Below are positions 8,046-42,836 of a DNA stretch of 42,836 bases, piece by piece. How positions within the stretch are numbered: position 1 is the stretch's first letter; every line of letters starts with the position of its first letter. A program made the position numbers and the translations under genes. The stretch is from a virus, in the IMG/VR virus record IMGVR_UViG_3300032753_000066, positions 1 to 42,836 of that record, one strand, 5' to 3'. Below the pieces are notes generated by a model. That model was not told the DNA's origin. It saw only the letters and a program-made list of their open reading frames with translations, and searched no databases.

Positions 8046-9068
8046 CTATTTAAATCCTAACCATTCGCCCCAAGTAGTCCAACCTATTCCTTTATAAAAA
8101 TCATAAGGATTGCTTGGTATATTTGTTGGTCTATTGCCATTTTTACAAAAATTGTTCCATTCCATTTTATTTTTTAAATTAAATTGTTGTATATATATTA
8201 ATGACTCGTTATAATTCATATATTCATCCTTTTTTAATTTTTTAATTTTTGGTTTATTAAATCCTTCCTTAAAAAATTTATTTTTTTCTAATAAATTATA
8301 TATTTTTTTATATCCACATTTGTAAATATTTACTATTTCTTCTATATTTTTATTATTATTTACAAAATTTATTAATTCAATTATGTCTATTTTTGACTTG
8401 TTTACAGAGGTTTTTGGCTTATTGTTAATTATCATTTCACATTTAGTAAATTTTCTTTTTAATCCAAATTCAAATCCATGTGGGTATAGAAATCTAAAAA
8501 GTTTTTCAATCTCAGAATATTTATTTATTCTAATCAAAGAACTTTTTCCGTTCTTTGTGATAACTTTTTTTATTTCATATTGCTCTATATTAAGAATTTT
8601 GAATAAATTCTTAATATGATCCCAATTCTGATCATAAGAAGATGAGATAGAAAATTGCTTTGTTTTCAAATTTGGTGAAATATAAAAACACCCGTCGCCG
8701 TCAATTAATCCTAAATAAAAATAATTTAATAAATTATTTGGAATTAAATTAAGTAATTCACATGGAGAATTAGTACTTTTTTTAATAAAATATTTACCAA
8801 AAAAAGTATCATATAATTTAGCATTGCAAAAATATAACATCATTTGTGGTTTATAATTTCTATTAAAACTTTTTCTATGCCTTTTAAACAAATTGAATTT
8901 TATAAATTCAATTTTTTGAAATTCTTTAAATATTTCAATCCCATCTTCTTCTATTATTTCTATTGAAATAACATTTCTTTTCACGGTACCATCAGACCAC
9001 AAATATCCTAAAAAATATACAAATTCTTTGGACCAAATTATGTTTAAACTTTTTTCATTATTTTTCAT
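8046..9068 (-). CDS. LAGLIDADG-type homing endonuclease
   Basis: 340 residues. Seen: two LAGLIDADG-like helices, FLGYLWSDGTV (about 14-24) and YFYLGLIDGDGCFYI (about 116-130), each ending in an acidic residue suited to metal binding, so a single chain can form the two-helix active site. The C-terminal ~60 residues carry the motif WNNFCKNG...P-x-x-IP-x-x-P-x-x-x-Y...GWTTWGEWLG, like the phage-integrase repeat unit (INT_rpt), probably a DNA-recognition add-on. The gene is antisense between the zinc-ribbon gene and the gp47-like gene and is AT-rich like its surroundings. Function as a freestanding homing endonuclease is well supported by motifs; activity is inferred. Confidence 0.85.
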   Translation of the reverse strand: MKNNEKSLNIIWSKEFVYFLGYLWSDGTVKRNVISIEIIEEDGIEIFKEFQKIEFIKFNLFKRHRKSFNRNYKPQMMLYFCNAKLYDTFFGKYFIKKSTNSPCELLNLIPNNLLNYFYLGLIDGDGCFYISPNLKTKQFSISSSYDQNWDHIKNLFKILNIEQYEIKKVITKNGKSSLIRINKYSEIEKLFRFLYPHGFEFGLKRKFTKCEMIINNKPKTSVNKSKIDIIELINFVNNNKNIEEIVNIYKCGYKKIYNLLEKNKFFKEGFNKPKIKKLKKDEYMNYNESLIYIQQFNLKNKMEWNNFCKNGNRPTNIPSNPYDFYKGIGWTTWGEWLGFK

Positions 9069-36179: not shown

Positions 36180-36695
36180 CTAATATAATTGTTTCTTATT
36201 TATCACATCAATAATAGTTACTTTAATTTTGTAGTCTTTTTCTATAATCTCTGCCCATTCAACAAATTTAACTAAATGTTCGTGTCTATCATCATAGAGT
36301 ATGAATTCATCTGCCTTAGGATTTTTTTTAATAATAGATTCAAATAGTTTAGTTTTAAACCTAAAAGTTTCACTGCCCCAATTGCAGAATACATCATGAA
36401 ATTTCAAATCATGGAAATCAAGTATCGCCTGAACTTCTTCTTTTAATTTGTCCATACGTCCTGTTGCTATAAAGACATAATTATCTTCATCAGAAATAGA
36501 TTCTGTATATTTTTTATACGTCCACATATTCATGGCTGGATAAAAAACACTCATATCCATAGATTCTTTTTTACTCCACCAACCAGTTGGGTGTGGGAAT
36601 GGCTCGCCCTTCTCACGAAGCCAGATTTGTCTGCCCTCTTCTGGTTCCATGGTGTGTATTAACGTTTTATCGAAGTCAAAACAAATAAGTTTCAT
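36180..36695 (-). CDS. HAD-type phosphatase (Swiss-army-knife-like)
   Basis: 171 residues. Seen: motif I CFDFDKTLIHT with D7 and D9; motif II FIATGR (about 75-80); a Lys-containing helix after RFKTKLFESIIKK (motif III); and motif IV EFILYDDRHEHLVKF (about 131-145) with a DD pair. The set and the DDRxEH wording resemble the HAD_SAK_1 group (Swiss Army Knife RNA-repair-like) and polynucleotide 3'-phosphatases, so an RNA/DNA-end phosphatase is a reasonable guess. It opens the three-gene operon behind a host-type promoter. Confidence 0.8.
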   Translation of the reverse strand: MKLICFDFDKTLIHTMEPEEGRQIWLREKGEPFPHPTGWWSKKESMDMSVFYPAMNMWTYKKYTESISDEDNYVFIATGRMDKLKEEVQAILDFHDLKFHDVFCNWGSETFRFKTKLFESIIKKNPKADEFILYDDRHEHLVKFVEWAEIIEKDYKIKVTIIDVINKKQLY

Positions 36696-36721: not shown

Positions 36722-36752
36722 CAAAGATACGAAAAATCTTTGAAAAAACAAA
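36722..36752 (-). promoter_or_regulatory. Bacteroidota-type host promoter for the HAD/UVR/clpS operon
   Basis: On the minus strand TTTG (36752-36749), 19 nt, then TATCTTTG (36729-36722) match the Bacteroidota vegetative consensus TTTG-N19-21-TAnnTTTG exactly. The start codon is 26 nt after the -7 box. CAAAGAT (36722-36728) and ATCTTTG (36736-36742) also form a dyad with a 7-nt spacer in this divergent region, so the plus-strand gene at 36766 may share control. Confidence 0.65.
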
Positions 36753-37749: not shown

Positions 37750-37803
37750 TAAAAAATGGCTTTTTATTTATAATATATAATTTACAAAAACAATTTTTTG
37801 ATA

Positions 37804-38287: not shown

Positions 38288-38316
38288 AAAAAAGCCGCTC
38301 AATGAGCGGCTTTTTT
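38288..38316. terminator. Bidirectional terminator
   Basis: Stem AAAAAAGCCGCTC (38288-38300) with 38304-38316, loop AAT, between the converging Q/A-tail gene and the GIY-YIG gene. Confidence 0.92.
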
Positions 38317-38325
38317 TATTTTATT

Positions 38326-39093
38326 TTAATCCATATGTGAAAAACATTCTTTCTGCCACCCATTTTTGTGTATTGATTTATAGCATCCACTTTTATATAT
38401 TTTTAATTCACTTCTGGTTTTATATTTTAGTGATTCTTCTATACAAGTATCTTTATTCCATATTATTTCATTACCACCTAGTGCGCCACATTTTATTTTA
38501 TTTAAAATTATATATCCTTTAGATTTATATTCATTTTTAATACTTTCCTCTAAAATAGAAGCCTCATTAGAGTTTATATAATCTGTCACTTTTTTGAAGA
38601 CTGGAAATAATCCAGTTTTATTAATATGCTTCAGAACGGAGCTATTATTAGTTTTCTTATTTTTATTTATATGTTCCTTTATTCTTTCTTCATAATTATA
38701 TGTCAGTCCCACATAAATACTATTATCTGAAAATATAGCAACATAGATACACCTTTTTAATCTATCACCAATTGGTATCATAAATGAACACATATCATCC
38801 AACCAACCATTTCTACGAAGTGCATTATATAGTGATGTATTATTTTTTTGTATTTCACTTTTGTGTTTATATTTAACAATTTCTTTTTCGCAATTTTCTT
38901 TATTGTCCCAAAATCCTTGCATTTTGCGGCAATCGAAATTGATACATATTTCTTCTAACCAACCATTTTTTACACAAGCTGAATAAGCCGGACACGATTT
39001 TTCTCTAAAGTCCTTTTTTGTCTTATGATTAAGAGACTCCTTTAGACAATTTTCTTTAGTCCAATAATTATTAGGTTTTGGTTTTTTTGGCAT
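38326..39093 (-). CDS. GIY-YIG homing endonuclease, main frame (probably continues from 39227 by -1 frameshift)
   Basis: 255 residues from the first in-frame ATG (39093). Seen: two ~50-residue DNA-binding-type repeats (W-[TN]-K-E-N-C...[KR]-N-G-W-L-[DE]-x-[IM]-C, about 12-105), a GIY-YIG-like core CIYVAIFSDNSIYVGLTYNYEERI (about 113-136, with YVA...YVGLT for the two strands, then E-R-I-x-E-H), and a third repeat at the C-terminus (about 209-250). Upstream of ATG 39093 the same frame continues as ENILDEICIH, which matches the end of another repeat, so the N-terminal repeat is split between frames. The gene nicks or cuts DNA and spreads by homing. Active only if the frame is restored or translation starts at 39093. 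Confidence 0.75.
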   Translation of the reverse strand: MPKKPKPNNYWTKENCLKESLNHKTKKDFREKSCPAYSACVKNGWLEEICINFDCRKMQGFWDNKENCEKEIVKYKHKSEIQKNNTSLYNALRRNGWLDDMCSFMIPIGDRLKRCIYVAIFSDNSIYVGLTYNYEERIKEHINKNKKTNNSSVLKHINKTGLFPVFKKVTDYINSNEASILEESIKNEYKSKGYIILNKIKCGALGGNEIIWNKDTCIEESLKYKTRSELKIYKSGCYKSIHKNGWQKECFSHMD

Positions 39094-39110
39094 ATGAATA
39101 CATATTTCAT

Positions 39111-39227
39111 CTAGTATATTTTCTTTTTTGAAAAGTTATAACAAGACAAATTATATTTGCGCAAATCGGTTCTGGTTTTATATTTTAACGCTTCTGTGAT
39201 GCATTCTTCTTTAGTCCATTTTCTCAT
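39111..39227 (-). CDS. 5' part of the GIY-YIG gene in a shifted frame
   Basis: 38 residues from ATG 39227: MRKWTKEECITEALKYKTR and on, ending KKKIY. It matches the first half of the repeat found three more times in the downstream frame (W-T-K-E-x-C-x-x-E-[SA]-L-K-Y-K-T). It carries TAATATATA 4 nt before its ATG, so 39227 is most likely the true start of the endonuclease gene. A -1 shift at the A_AAA_AAG heptamer (39129-39123) joins it to the 38326-39093 frame without any other change. Either a programmed frameshift or a lost A in the homopolymer explains it. Confidence 0.65.
   Translation of the reverse strand: MRKWTKEECITEALKYKTRTDLRKYNLSCYNFSKKKIY
39123..39129 (-). promoter_or_regulatory. 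Candidate -1 frameshift site A_AAA_AAG
   Basis: In the frame from 39227 the codons are TCA-AAA-AAG, which makes the canonical A_AAA_AAG slippery heptamer used by insertion sequences and dnaX. Slipping back one base gives GAA-AAT-ATA, which encodes the expected continuation of the repeat. No strong stem-loop was noticed just downstream. Confidence 0.45.
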
Positions 39228-39231
39228 AATT

Positions 39232-39240
39232 TATATATTA
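39232..39240 (-). promoter_or_regulatory. TAATATATA motif, 4 nt before start 39227
   Basis: On the minus strand TAATATATA is followed by AATT and ATG. It marks 39227, not 39093, as the start of the GIY-YIG gene. Confidence 0.5.
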
Positions 39241-39257
39241 TAATGTCAAGTGTTCCT

Positions 39258-39446
39258 TTACATATTTTTTAATATTTCTTTAATATCTAAGCCTTCCTTT
39301 TCAAGTAGTTCCAAAACTCGTTCGGGTGGTATTTTTTTTTCTCGCCTCCATAAAGATATTGCTTGTCTAGTGGTGTTAAAATACACCTGTAATTTTTTAT
39401 TATATTTATTTTCTATGAAATCTTCTACAAAATCAAAATCCAACAT
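39258..39446 (-). CDS. Small Cro/CI-like helix-turn-helix regulator
   Basis: 62 residues. Seen: a short N-terminal helix and a helix-turn-helix in LQVYFNTTRQAISLWRREKK followed by IPPERVLELLEKEG (about 19-52), the arrangement of small Cro-like repressors (recognition helix around RQAISLWRR). Its first seven codons form one arm of a 21-bp inverted repeat whose other arm reaches the glnA stop codon, so its start codon can be hidden in an mRNA hairpin. It is downstream of glnA in the same direction, with 29 nt between the genes. It may regulate glnA or itself; targets unknown. Confidence 0.7.
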   Translation of the reverse strand: MLDFDFVEDFIENKYNKKLQVYFNTTRQAISLWRREKKIPPERVLELLEKEGLDIKEILKNM

Positions 39447-39475
39447 AAGTTTTATATGTTGGATTTTGATTTTGT
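39427..39475 (-). promoter_or_regulatory. 21-bp perfect inverted repeat covering the Cro-like start codon
   Basis: Arms 39427-39447 and 39455-39475 are perfect complements around the 7-nt spacer AGTTTTA (plus strand). One arm holds the ATG and first codons of the Cro-like gene; the other ends at the base before the glnA stop. In a read-through glnA transcript the hairpin would bury the AUG. No U-tract follows. It could be a translation switch, a dyad operator, or an RNA end for glnA. Confidence 0.75.
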
Positions 39476-40588
39476 TTATGAAAGAATAGTTTTTATCAAA
39501 ATATTTATTATTTCATATGGGTCTGCGCTACTTGCTGGTCTGCGATCCTCTAAATAACCAGGTGTAGTAGAATCTTCAATAGAAGAAGGTATTCTAATAG
39601 ATGCAGTTCTATCTCCTATGCCATATCTATATTCATTAATAGAGCAAGTTTCGTTGGCTCCAGTTAAACGATACTCATTATTTATACCATAAACTGCAAT
39701 ATGCTCAGGAATTTTAGTTCCTAATTTTTCACAAGCTTCTATAACTAATGCCTTTTTATTTTTTAAATCAGTTCTCATAGTTTTTGTAGAGAAGTTAACA
39801 TGCATACCAGAACCATTCCATTCATTGCCTTTATAAGGTTTTGGGTCTAATACAATATAATAATTATATGATTCTGATAATCTTTCTAAAATATATCTAG
39901 ATACCCATAATTGATCCGCACCTTCTTTAGCATAAACTGGGCCAATTTGATATTCCCATTGTCCTAATGCTACTTCTGCGTTTATACCAGATATTTTTAA
40001 ATTAGCAATTTCACACAATCTCGCATGCTCTTCAACAAATGCTCTACCTGCGACATTTCTGCCACCAACTGCACAATAATATGGACCTTGGGGTCTTGCT
40101 GGCGTGGTCATTTTTTCTGTATATGCATTATTTGCTGGCCATCCTAATGGTTTGCCAGTTTTAATATCAAATATAAAATATTCCTGTTCAAGACCGTACA
40201 TAGTTTCGTCATCATATTTATCTAGTGCTTCAACCATCTTTGCTCTTTTATTTGTAATATGTGGTGTCATATCAGTATGATATACTTCAGCAACAACGAT
40301 GAAGCCATTTTGTTTGAATGGATCTAAAAAGATATTAACTGGTTTAAGCAATAGCTCTGAATTTTTGGTATCTGCTTGATCAGTAGATGAACCATCAAAG
40401 TTCCACAAAGGAAGTGTTTCTGGATTTTCTTTCCATGATTTGAAAATTGTATCTTTAGTAACAACTTTTCCTTTTGTGTCTAATGTTGTAGTGATTTCTT
40501 TTTCTACAATTTTTGTTTTAGAACGTATTTGCTGTGGATATGAGCCATCCAACCAAATATATTCTAAATGAAAATTAATTTTTAGCAT
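39476..40588 (-). CDS. glnA: Glutamine synthetase, type II
   Basis: 370 residues, full length for GSII (usually 340-370). Seen: beta-grasp start EYIWLDGSYPQQIRSKTK (about 9-26); PLWNFDGSSTDQA (about 60-72); the metal site YGLEQEYFIFD (about 131-141); QWEYQIGP (about 210-217); GSGMHVNFSTK (about 258-268); the ATP/glutamate site TGANETCSINEYRYGIGDR and SIRIP (about 310-334); and YLEDRRPASSADPY (about 344-357). All expected active-site motifs are present, so it should make glutamine from glutamate, ammonia and ATP. A full enzyme of nitrogen assimilation in a phage is rare. Divergent from an RHH regulator across a 15-bp dyad; followed by a Cro-like gene. Confidence 0.95.
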   Translation of the reverse strand: MLKINFHLEYIWLDGSYPQQIRSKTKIVEKEITTTLDTKGKVVTKDTIFKSWKENPETLPLWNFDGSSTDQADTKNSELLLKPVNIFLDPFKQNGFIVVAEVYHTDMTPHITNKRAKMVEALDKYDDETMYGLEQEYFIFDIKTGKPLGWPANNAYTEKMTTPARPQGPYYCAVGGRNVAGRAFVEEHARLCEIANLKISGINAEVALGQWEYQIGPVYAKEGADQLWVSRYILERLSESYNYYIVLDPKPYKGNEWNGSGMHVNFSTKTMRTDLKNKKALVIEACEKLGTKIPEHIAVYGINNEYRLTGANETCSINEYRYGIGDRTASIRIPSSIEDSTTPGYLEDRRPASSADPYEIINILIKTILS

Positions 40589-40644
40589 AATGTAATTTTT
40601 TTATTTTTATTTTATATATCCAAAATAAAAAATGTTGTTTTTGG

Positions 40645-40681
40645 TGTAAAATAATTACACAACAAATGTAATTATTTTACA
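40645..40681. promoter_or_regulatory. 15-bp dyad in the glnA/RHH divergent region, probable operator
   Basis: TGTAAAATAATTACA (40645-40659) and its complement (40667-40681) around a 7-nt spacer. TACATTTG, which fits the Bacteroidota -7 box TAnnTTTG, reads on the minus strand at 40670-40663 inside the dyad, toward glnA; no good -33 TTTG was found. A repressor bound here would block that promoter. The RHH protein encoded 26 nt away is the obvious candidate ligand. Confidence 0.65.
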
Positions 40682-40706
40682 TATAATATAAAAATAAAGG
40701 ATAAAT

Positions 40707-40991
40707 ATGAAAACAATAAATATAAGTGATGAATTACACACAAGGTTAAAAGATGCTGCTGAATTTTGTGGCGTATCTATACAAACTTTAGTAACAGAAA
40801 TGTTGGAAAGAGATTTTAAAAATGCAATAACAGTTAAAGAAATTACCATTGACGATGCTGGTGATTTAAAATTATATCATGATCAAATACAAAGCTATCT
40901 TAGAATTAAGAATTTAAATGAAGGAGATTTTAAGCTAACATTAACTAGTGAATTATTTAAAAAACCTAAAATAAAAATATATCATAGATAA
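40707..40991 (+). CDS. Ribbon-helix-helix (CopG/Arc-type) regulator
   Basis: 94 residues. Seen: an RHH domain at the N-terminus, MKTINISDELHTRLKDAAEF then CGVSIQTLVTEMLERDF (1-37), with the strand TINIS as the DNA-reading ribbon of a dimer; then a ~50-residue beta-rich C-domain. It is one of few genes here with a recognisable Shine-Dalgarno (AAAGGA, 8 nt before ATG) and it lacks the TAATATATA motif, so it is probably expressed by host machinery. It lies divergent to glnA with a dyad between them. Repression or activation of glnA and autoregulation are inferred. A tail antitoxin role is possible, but no toxin gene is adjacent. Confidence 0.8.
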   Translation: MKTINISDELHTRLKDAAEFCGVSIQTLVTEMLERDFKNAITVKEITIDDAGDLKLYHDQIQSYLRIKNLNEGDFKLTLTSELFKKPKIKIYHR

Positions 40992-41024
40992 AAAAAATTG
41001 CCTTATTTTATAGGGCAATTTTTT
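40992..41024. terminator. Bidirectional terminator
   Basis: AAAAAATTGCC (40992-41002) pairs with 41014-41024 and leaves T-runs on both strands. It lies between the RHH gene and the converging isochorismatase-fold gene and overlaps the 3' end of the latter. Confidence 0.88.
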
Positions 41025-41614
41025 GCTGAATAAATAAATTTCTCATTTTTTAATATTTTTAATCCAAGTGCTTTAGCTGTTATCATAACATCTAATATGC
41101 ATTCATTTTCTGCACCACCAACTATTACAATTTCTTCTCCTTTTATAGATTTAAATAAATCATATAATTTAATAGGAGAATGAAACCACTGATGATTGTT
41201 ACCTATATAAACTATAATAGTTCCTTCGGTTGTTTTAAAATATTCACCTCTTTGTATATTAGAACCTTTAGATTTTATTTCGTTATAAGTTTCTTCTGAA
41301 AGGATTTTTTTATAAAAATCAACATTAACATCGTAATTATATCTTTTTTCAATTAAATCAACTTGATTTTGAAACCTATATAAATCATCTTTATTTTCTA
41401 TATCAGGTTGTTCATCATATAGAAAATCTTTATCAGGATTTTTTCCTTCGTGGTGATTATCAAATATTTGATAAACTTTGTCGAAGTCGTTACAATATTC
41501 ATTAAGTTGTGCCAAATAATTATCATTAAAATATTTTTTAAATGATTTTTGAACATCAACAATAATTAAAATTCTATCTTTAGAAAAATTCTCAAATAAT
41601 TTAATATACCTCAT
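41003..41614 (-). CDS. Isochorismatase/nicotinamidase-fold hydrolase with capsid-tag-like N-terminus
   Basis: 203 residues. Seen: tag MRYIKLFENF followed directly by the fold's first strand RILIIVDVQKSF with D20; a possible metal pair D52/H54 in IFDNHHEG; K90 in DLIEKRYNYDV; and C172 in IVIVGGAENECILDV, then a helix and strand AKALGLKILKNEKF. D20-K90-C172 form the expected catalytic triad of cysteine hydrolases that include nicotinamidase and isochorismatase. Substrate unknown. The tag is fused to the enzyme start, so a delivered enzyme acting early, for instance on NAD-derived nicotinamide, is a hypothesis. TAATATATA lies 4 nt before the start. Confidence 0.8.
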   Translation of the reverse strand: MRYIKLFENFSKDRILIIVDVQKSFKKYFNDNYLAQLNEYCNDFDKVYQIFDNHHEGKNPDKDFLYDEQPDIENKDDLYRFQNQVDLIEKRYNYDVNVDFYKKILSEETYNEIKSKGSNIQRGEYFKTTEGTIIVYIGNNHQWFHSPIKLYDLFKSIKGEEIVIVGGAENECILDVMITAKALGLKILKNEKFIYSAKNCPIK

Positions 41615-41716: not shown

Positions 41717-41720
41717 TTAA

Positions 41721-42836
41721 ATGATAATAACAAAAAAGGTTGAAATAAGGGTAAATAATAACAGTATTAAACATTTAAATAATAAAGGATATTTAAATAT
41801 AAAGGTGGGTGATATAATAGAAATTGATGTAGAAAGTTTAATGAGAGGCTCTGGAATAAAAGTTTTAGTTAAATGTGATTTTTGTACTAAAGAAAAGGAG
41901 ACAACATATGGATTATATTTGAGAAATATAAATAATGGTAATTTATATGCTTGTGGACCAAAATGTGCTTCATTAAAATATAAAAATACATGTTTAGAAC
42001 AATATGGAGTAGATAATTTTATGAAAACAGAAAAATGTAAAGAAAAAATAAAAAATACATGCCTTGAAAAATATGGCAAACACTTTTCAAAAACTTCGGA
42101 AGTTAAAGAAAAAATAAAAAATACGTGCCTTGAAAAATATGGCAAAATAGGATATAATCTAACAGATAAATTTAAGGAGCAAAGTAAAAAAACTTGTTTA
42201 GAAAAATATGGCGTTGAACATATATCACAATCTACTGAAATAAAATGGAAAGTTAAAAAAACAAATTTAGAAAAATATGGTAGCATTTGCTACCATACAT
42301 CTGATGTATCAAAGGAAAAAAATAAAGTTTTATACGGTGTTGAATATTATTCACAAACTGATGATTTTAAAAATAAATGGAAATACACTATGAAAGAAAA
42401 ATATGGTAAAGAATTTTATTCACAAACTGATGATTTTAAAAAACAGGCTAAATTAACATGTTTAAAAAATTATGGCGTTGATAGTCCAATGAAAAATAGA
42501 GACATAGTAGAAAAATCTTTAAAATCAAGAGGACTTGATTTTGAAAGTGATGAATATTTAATTTATAGAAGAAAAGTAAATAATTTAACAAAAAGAAATA
42601 AAAAAGAATTGTTTGAAAATTGGAATGGATATGATTTTTATGATAGTGAGTACATAAAGGATAATTTAGTATTAAGTTGGAATTCTGGTAAATATCCAAC
42701 AATAGATCACAAAATTAGTGCTTATGATGGTTTCAAAAATGGCATATCCCCAGAAGAAATATCAAAAATGGAAAATCTATGCATTACAAAAAAAAGCATA
42801 AACTCTAGTAAAAATAGAAAGTCTATAACTTATGTT
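41721..42836 (+). CDS. Repeat-rich phage endonuclease (DUF7487-like), cut by the right window edge
   Basis: The frame is open for 372 codons to the last base, so the 3' end is missing. Seen: an N-terminal domain ending in a zinc-type pair, KCDFC (about 53-57) and ACGPKC (about 77-82); then about eight copies of a 20-25-residue repeat of the form C-L-E-K-Y-G-V-x-x-x-x-Q-[ST]-x-[ED]-[FIV]-K-x-K-x-K-x-T (about 89-270); and a C-terminal segment with YPTIDHKISAYDGFKNGISP (about 332-351), an HNH-like D-H pair typical of these homing-type nucleases. The LEKYG repeats probably read DNA. AT-rich and standing alone beside the isochorismatase gene, it is likely a selfish element. Confidence 0.8.
   Translation, partial: MIITKKVEIRVNNNSIKHLNNKGYLNIKVGDIIEIDVESLMRGSGIKVLVKCDFCTKEKETTYGLYLRNINNGNLYACGPKCASLKYKNTCLEQYGVDNFMKTEKCKEKIKNTCLEKYGKHFSKTSEVKEKIKNTCLEKYGKIGYNLTDKFKEQSKKTCLEKYGVEHISQSTEIKWKVKKTNLEKYGSICYHTSDVSKEKNKVLYGVEYYSQTDDFKNKWKYTMKEKYGKEFYSQTDDFKKQAKLTCLKNYGVDSPMKNRDIVEKSLKSRGLDFESDEYLIYRRKVNNLTKRNKKELFENWNGYDFYDSEYIKDNLVLSWNSGKYPTIDHKISAYDGFKNGISPEEISKMENLCITKKSINSSKNRKSITYV

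Follow-up and report, generated by a model that had tools for sequence, protein, structure and literature searches.

We consider it rather likely that the DNA analyzed here (the window, a 42.8-kb virus record that is itself a fragment) derives from a Mahaphage-like huge phage with an old viral type II glutamine synthetase (GSII) gene, glnA, whose product would make glutamine. In this reading the divergent neighboring gene encodes an RHH-like regulator that would repress itself and likely modulate glnA, and a small HTH ORF, a 21-bp dyad and a GIY-YIG endonuclease gene at the other end of glnA would form a separate insertion. The original prediction had described a self-regulated GS module. It stands with respect to the GSII gene, the divergent RHH gene and the operator-like dyad, which are kept in the closest relatives, but not with respect to a Cro-like gene and the 21-bp dyad that it also included. 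The features of the glnA-rhh region are as follows.

39476-40588, minus strand: glnA, encoding a 370-aa type II glutamine synthetase (GSII) with intact catalytic motifs
40613-40639, minus strand: probable glnA promoter region, AACAACA (40633-40639) plus ATATATA (40613-40619), identified by inspection
40645-40659: operator-like palindrome 1, TGTA-N7-TACA
40667-40681: operator-like palindrome 2, TGTA-N7-TACA, its centre 22 bp from that of palindrome 1
40682-40689: -10-like box TATAATAT of rhh, abutting operator-like palindrome 2
40707-40991, plus strand: rhh, RHH-like regulator gene divergent from glnA, 94 aa, N-terminal beta-alpha-alpha ahead of a small C-terminal alpha/beta domain
40992-41024: terminator-like inverted repeat that is flanked by A/T runs and separates rhh from the gene beyond it

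The terminase encoded by the window is 57-58% identical over its full length to those of LR745206 and LR756502 (634- and 642-kb huge phages), and a run of neighboring genes near the terminase is common to the window and both genomes. Judged by this terminase similarity and synteny, the window would be a fragment of a Mahaphage-like huge phage. Al-Shayeb et al. placed their largest genomes in the Mahaphage clade and predicted Bacteroidetes hosts for the five genomes over 634 kb (PMC7162821); by analogy, the host of the phage studied here is probably a member of the Bacteroidota. Several related terminase genes are interrupted at the start of TINAAIS, beside Walker A (L029:9025-11040, L001:9040-10890, L226 and L227), and the interruptions in L029 and L001 have an intein-like C-terminal HN-T junction. 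The terminases of the window and of L003 are uninterrupted.

ORF calling in the window gave glnA as an uninterrupted frame of 370 aa. Nearly the full length of its product could be aligned with solved GSII enzymes (best PDB match 4bax, E=7e-82, then 7v4i, 2e-80), and the NCBIfam GlnII model NF041605 matched over the whole model (E=9e-103). The equivalog cut-off of NF041605 was not reached however (344 bits vs 500), and the GSII name is therefore based on homology and motifs: the protein is clearly homologous to GSII by sequence and too divergent to receive the GlnII name automatically. The catalytic domain PF00120 passed its curated cut-off (62.8 bits vs 24), and the beta-Grasp N-terminal domain PF03951 scored 32.2 bits vs a cut-off of 33.4. 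Both classical GS signature motifs, searched with PROSITE-type patterns, were found, at residues 64 and 250. In addition, E134, E136, E212, H263, E313, R332, R349 and R350 were invariant in all viral sequences compared (30 close and 38 other) as well as in more than 100 bacterial ones. The predicted intact GSII with its active-site motifs is thus borne out by the uninterrupted ORF, the PDB and NCBIfam matches, both signatures and the invariant catalytic residues. Together, the sequence data support the view that the window carries a real, selectively maintained phage GSII.

In a quick IQ-TREE phylogeny, with support given by SH-aLRT only, the window GS fell within a viral-only clade (SH-aLRT 100) on a stem branch of 0.32 changes per column. 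Bacteroidota GSII, against which the original prediction had proposed to place the enzyme, and other viral clades join near this clade in an order that the tree does not fix; a Bacteroidota-related origin of the viral GS is likely on this basis. Recent acquisition of the gene from a bacterium was considered and is disfavored because of the viral-only clade and its long stem. The dN/dS ratios of the window GS vs clade members were about 0.12-0.23, with synonymous sites near saturation for the more distant members, and by this measure the clade is under strong purifying selection. A GSII from a Flavobacteriaceae MAG contig (TMED121) nests inside a viral GS clade (L185/L124); it may come from a phage contig that was binned with the bacterium, or reflect transfer from virus to host.

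Phage-borne GS had been called rare. Relatives of the window GS are however encoded by 259 IMG/VR stretches, nine moraphages encode GS (PMC12619734), and glnA is listed for jumbo phages (PMC13037316). Phages with a GS gene are thus not rare, nor is the finding of one new, and such genes are common in the huge-phage group of the window. Four INPHARED records also contain GS relatives; two of these, each of 735,411 bases, share identical match coordinates and are probably one genome. As in the window, the GS gene of the moraphages and jumbo phages resides in large phages, and the moraphages are mostly linked to Bacteroidota, with GS proposed as a nitrogen auxiliary metabolic gene. The available parts of these two sources do not describe a flanking RHH gene or operators, and the likeness to these phages is by description only. 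The huge phages LR745206, LR756502 and LR756501/3 (634, 642 and 735 kb; PMC7162821) encode GSII 44-45% identical to that of the window, and two of these genomes have the terminase neighborhood in common with it. Their GS genes are however separated from the terminase by ~10-14 kb or located at a great distance from it, their enzymes belong to other tree clades than that of the window, and no rhh homologue was detected in them.

The window GS shares enzyme family, catalytic residues and about 49-55% BLAST identity with Bacteroidota GlnII/GSII, but its phage clade differs by a longer N-terminal region and by the fixed changes D78E, H312N and G328T, each present in 30/30 close viral rows. In an alignment of 106 bacterial GSII sequences, 103 columns were at least 95% conserved; the window GS retains 92 of these, and the three fixed changes are among the exceptions. 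H312N adjoins E313, which we take to be the catalytic flap glutamate. Most members of a second viral (Mahaphage) GS clade have RDTS replacing RGAS, in the same stretch as G328T. None of the phage-clade substitutions touches the catalytic residues checked, and altered kinetics or feedback control of the viral enzymes would be a guess from sequence.

The rhh gene occupies the same divergent position beside GS in L029 (97%), L001/L002 (64%) and L003 (43%), in agreement with the predicted RHH regulator divergent from glnA; L001 and L002 are near-identical, so that these four relatives represent three independent ones. No curated RHH family matched the rhh product above its cut-off, and sub-threshold matches, at residues 3-36, were mainly to RHH families. 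An AF2 model of moderate confidence (pLDDT 72) places helices at residues 8-21 and 25-36 ahead of a small alpha/beta domain; a PDB fold search with this model returned nothing significant (best NikR, E 0.25). Beyond this lineage, a search for relatives of the protein gave one weak partial match (L083). The rhh product resembles Arc/CopG/ParD/NikR-type RHH repressors in its short N-terminal beta-alpha-alpha pattern, its divergent gene and the tandem palindromic sites, but it reaches the threshold of none of these families. The gene was not found in the GS relatives L004 and L008, and it would therefore be dispensable for GS function. Between the window and L029, dS was 0.19 for RHH and 0.76 for GS. 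Because of this difference rhh and GS appear to have partly separate histories, the rhh-side block having been exchanged between relatives, as judged by dS, more recently than the GS genes diverged.

The gene next to rhh (41003-41614, minus strand) looks isochorismatase-like by eye and has no Pfam match. Its homologue in L225/L228 and in the Mahaphages L187/L188 follows the homologue of the gene at 37798, on the same strand and with no GS between them, and on this ground the placement and orientation of GS-rhh in the window look derived.

The glnA-rhh intergenic region contains a perfect inverted repeat (40645-40659/40667-40681; 15-bp arms, 100% identity, 7-nt spacer). This repeat and the one with 21-bp arms, also with a 7-nt spacer, lie exactly where the original prediction had placed them. 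Perfect arms of at least 15 bp occurred on average only 0.017 times in 60 dinucleotide shuffles of the window, and therefore neither dyad is accidental. The other long perfect arms in the window (24, 20, 18, 17, 17 and 15 bp) have loops of 0-4 nt, and several are terminator-like.

Comparison of the three independent relatives is informative about the nature of the 15-bp dyad. In L001 its arms are TGTAAAAAAATTACA and TGTAGGATTATTACA, which break the long hairpin and keep the ends of both palindromes: the outer TGTA/TACA bases are unchanged at 16/16 positions and inner bases differ at 6/14 (Fisher p about 0.005). In L003 only one palindrome, TGTAATTTTTCTACA, survives. Since the relatives keep the palindrome ends while the hairpin is lost, the 37-bp dyad looks better read as two 15-bp palindromes, putative operators of a local repressor, than as one hairpin. 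Within the 143.8-kb L029 record, TGTAANNNNNTTACA (strict form TGTAA-N5-TTACA) occurs only at the dyad, which favors local control. Across IMG/VR the operator pattern was found in 20 stretches, among which the record of L029 is the only recognized relative.

The RHH protein probably binds the two tandem TGTA-N7-TACA palindromes between glnA and rhh. Because palindrome 2 touches the -10-like box of rhh, repression by RHH of its own promoter is the proposal that we regard as safest. RHH would likely also modulate the neighboring glnA promoter, since the promoter-like elements of glnA lie just beyond palindrome 1. The layout does not force such control however, because the probable glnA promoter has the operator pair upstream of it; control of glnA by RHH, in addition to autoregulation, is plausible. 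The AACAACA and ATATATA elements are kept in L029, L001/L002 and L003. GS genes of other phages, for example that of L080, have related ATATAAAATAAAA elements upstream of them.

The motif TAATATATA, which the original prediction took as a putative late promoter mark, is enriched in the window (19 observed vs 7.25 expected; 0/100 shuffles) and is found upstream of many of its genes. It is absent upstream of glnA and rhh, and on this point the listing of sites agrees with the prediction. A Bacteroidota-like -7 box had also been claimed, with early expression from host RNA polymerase as the consequence. The box, TACATTTG, is indeed present within the 15-bp dyad (40663-40670, minus strand), but TANNTTTG occurs at chance frequency in the window (94 observed vs 85 expected) and the box is not conserved, L001 and L003 having TACATTAG instead. 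We therefore rejected the box as the glnA promoter, and the claim of early expression based on it is not supported. A sigma-70 scan of the window yielded no excess over shuffles. The box TATCTTTG (36722-36729, minus strand) lies just upstream of a HAD-family gene (36180-36695) that lacks TAATATATA, and may be a better candidate for a host-type promoter than the box in the dyad.

The region on the other side of glnA contains the following features.

38288-38316: bidirectional terminator, directly 3' of glnA in relatives
38322-39484: ~1.16-kb insertion relative to L029 (HTH ORF, dyad and GIY-YIG), separating glnA from the ancestral convergent terminator
38326-39093, minus strand: GIY-YIG endonuclease ORF, with its N-terminal part in a different frame that reaches upstream to about 39227
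39258-39446, minus strand: small HTH/Cro-like ORF, 62 aa, with a YdaS-like sub-threshold match; inside the insertion
39427-39475: perfect 21-bp inverted repeat (39427-39447/39455-39475, 100% identity, 7-nt spacer); inside the insertion

The alignment of the window with L029 is continuous from 41684 to 39485 and is followed by a gap until 38321. The insertion is absent from L001, L002, L003 and L029, and apparently from L220, which has no room for it; in the first four, glnA is followed almost directly by the convergent terminator. The Cro-like gene downstream of glnA and the 21-bp dyad are present as predicted, but are not parts of the module. The HTH-like protein did not reach the cut-off of a curated HTH family (YdaS, 16.6 bits vs 30), and its model is all-helical, of low confidence and without significant matches in a fold search. 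The dyad is located between glnA and the HTH ORF and overlaps the first codons of the latter, whose start codon lies in the 3' arm. As RNA it is very stable (-28 kcal/mol, z -9.9), and no exact copy was found elsewhere in IMG/VR. Hairpins limit translation of T4 endonuclease genes, and by analogy the 21-bp stem may block translation of the HTH ORF from glnA read-through transcripts.

The GIY-YIG gene has its own TAATATATA at 39232-39240 (minus strand) and relatives in Vibrio phages, Rhizobium phages and the 636-kb phage LR756504. It is split: an upstream 38-aa ORF (39111-39227, minus strand) has a WTKE-C repeat motif in common with the main ORF, and the frame changes at an A AAA AAG heptamer (about 39123-39129), a type of site used for -1 ribosomal frameshifting. 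Ribosomal frameshifting and a plain frameshift mutation or assembly error are equally possible explanations. The HTH ORF would, along with the 21-bp dyad and the GIY-YIG gene, constitute a separate mobile insertion. Pairs of an antitoxin-like regulator and a homing endonuclease are likewise described for moraphages (PMC12619734), where they are CcdA/HicB-like plus PacI-like rather than HTH plus GIY-YIG. The window also contains a LAGLIDADG-like endonuclease gene (8046-9068, minus strand) and an open frame (41720-42836, plus strand) that runs off its end, has many CLEKYG-type repeats and resembles, by eye, proteins associated with phage homing endonucleases. Together with the GIY-YIG gene, these suggest a heavy homing-endonuclease load.

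The proposal that RHH likely modulates glnA has to be weighed against the possibility that it is a purely autoregulated hitch-hiker, for instance a solitary antitoxin-like protein, beside a glnA promoter that is older and independent. The contact of palindrome 2 with the -10-like box of rhh fits this, as do the exchange of the RHH block separately from GS, the similar ATATAAAA elements upstream of GS genes in other phages that lack rhh, and the many free-standing antitoxin genes reported for moraphages (PMC12619734). Four relatives have the same gene arrangement however, the palindromes in the L029 record are confined to the glnA-rhh intergenic region, and palindrome 1 lies on the glnA promoter side, so that we regard a mere hitch-hiker as possible but unlikely. 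That the Cro-like gene and the 21-bp dyad form another regulatory arm of the module might be suspected from the position of this gene directly downstream of glnA and from the dyad ending at the glnA stop codon; we consider it highly improbable, as IMG/VR searches with the HTH protein and with the dyad found no relatives at the sensitivity used and a terminator directly follows glnA in relatives.

It is also improbable that the dyads, instead of being DNA operators, function at the RNA level as hairpins of an attenuator, a riboswitch or an element for RNA stability. Both fold stably (the 21-bp dyad has z -9.9, the 15-bp dyad z -4.7/-4.2), and the 21-bp dyad, which has no operator-like relatives and contains a start codon, would suit translational sequestration. 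For the 15-bp dyad this is contradicted by L001, in which the long hairpin is lost and the palindrome of each arm is kept, and an Rfam search for a riboswitch or known RNA at glnA gave no match. We give similarly little credence to the idea that the GS has drifted away from glutamine synthesis, whether to a different amidation or to a regulatory or decoy role: H312N and G328T, fixed beside the active site throughout the clade, could be read in this way, but the signatures and catalytic residues are kept and purifying selection is strong. A bolder extension of the favored reading, which we hold to be doubtful, is that the surroundings of the active site have been re-tuned in viral GSII (H312N, G328T; RDTS for RGAS), possibly to escape host feedback, and that this is combined with a dedicated phage repressor switch, perhaps sensing a metabolite through the small alpha/beta C-terminal domain of RHH.

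According to the favored reading, GSII would convert glutamate and ammonium to glutamine in the course of infection, and the amide nitrogen of this glutamine would go into nucleotides and phage protein. Because the synthesis of purines, pyrimidines and amino sugars draws on glutamine as amide donor, a huge phage that encodes GS may sustain nucleotide supply when host nitrogen assimilation falters. The window adds a specific, testable arrangement of regulator and operators beside a phage GS. In addition, the clades of viral GSII genes are old and maintained by selection, with changes of their own adjoining invariant active-site residues, and these changes make phage re-tuning of nitrogen assimilation testable with purified enzymes.
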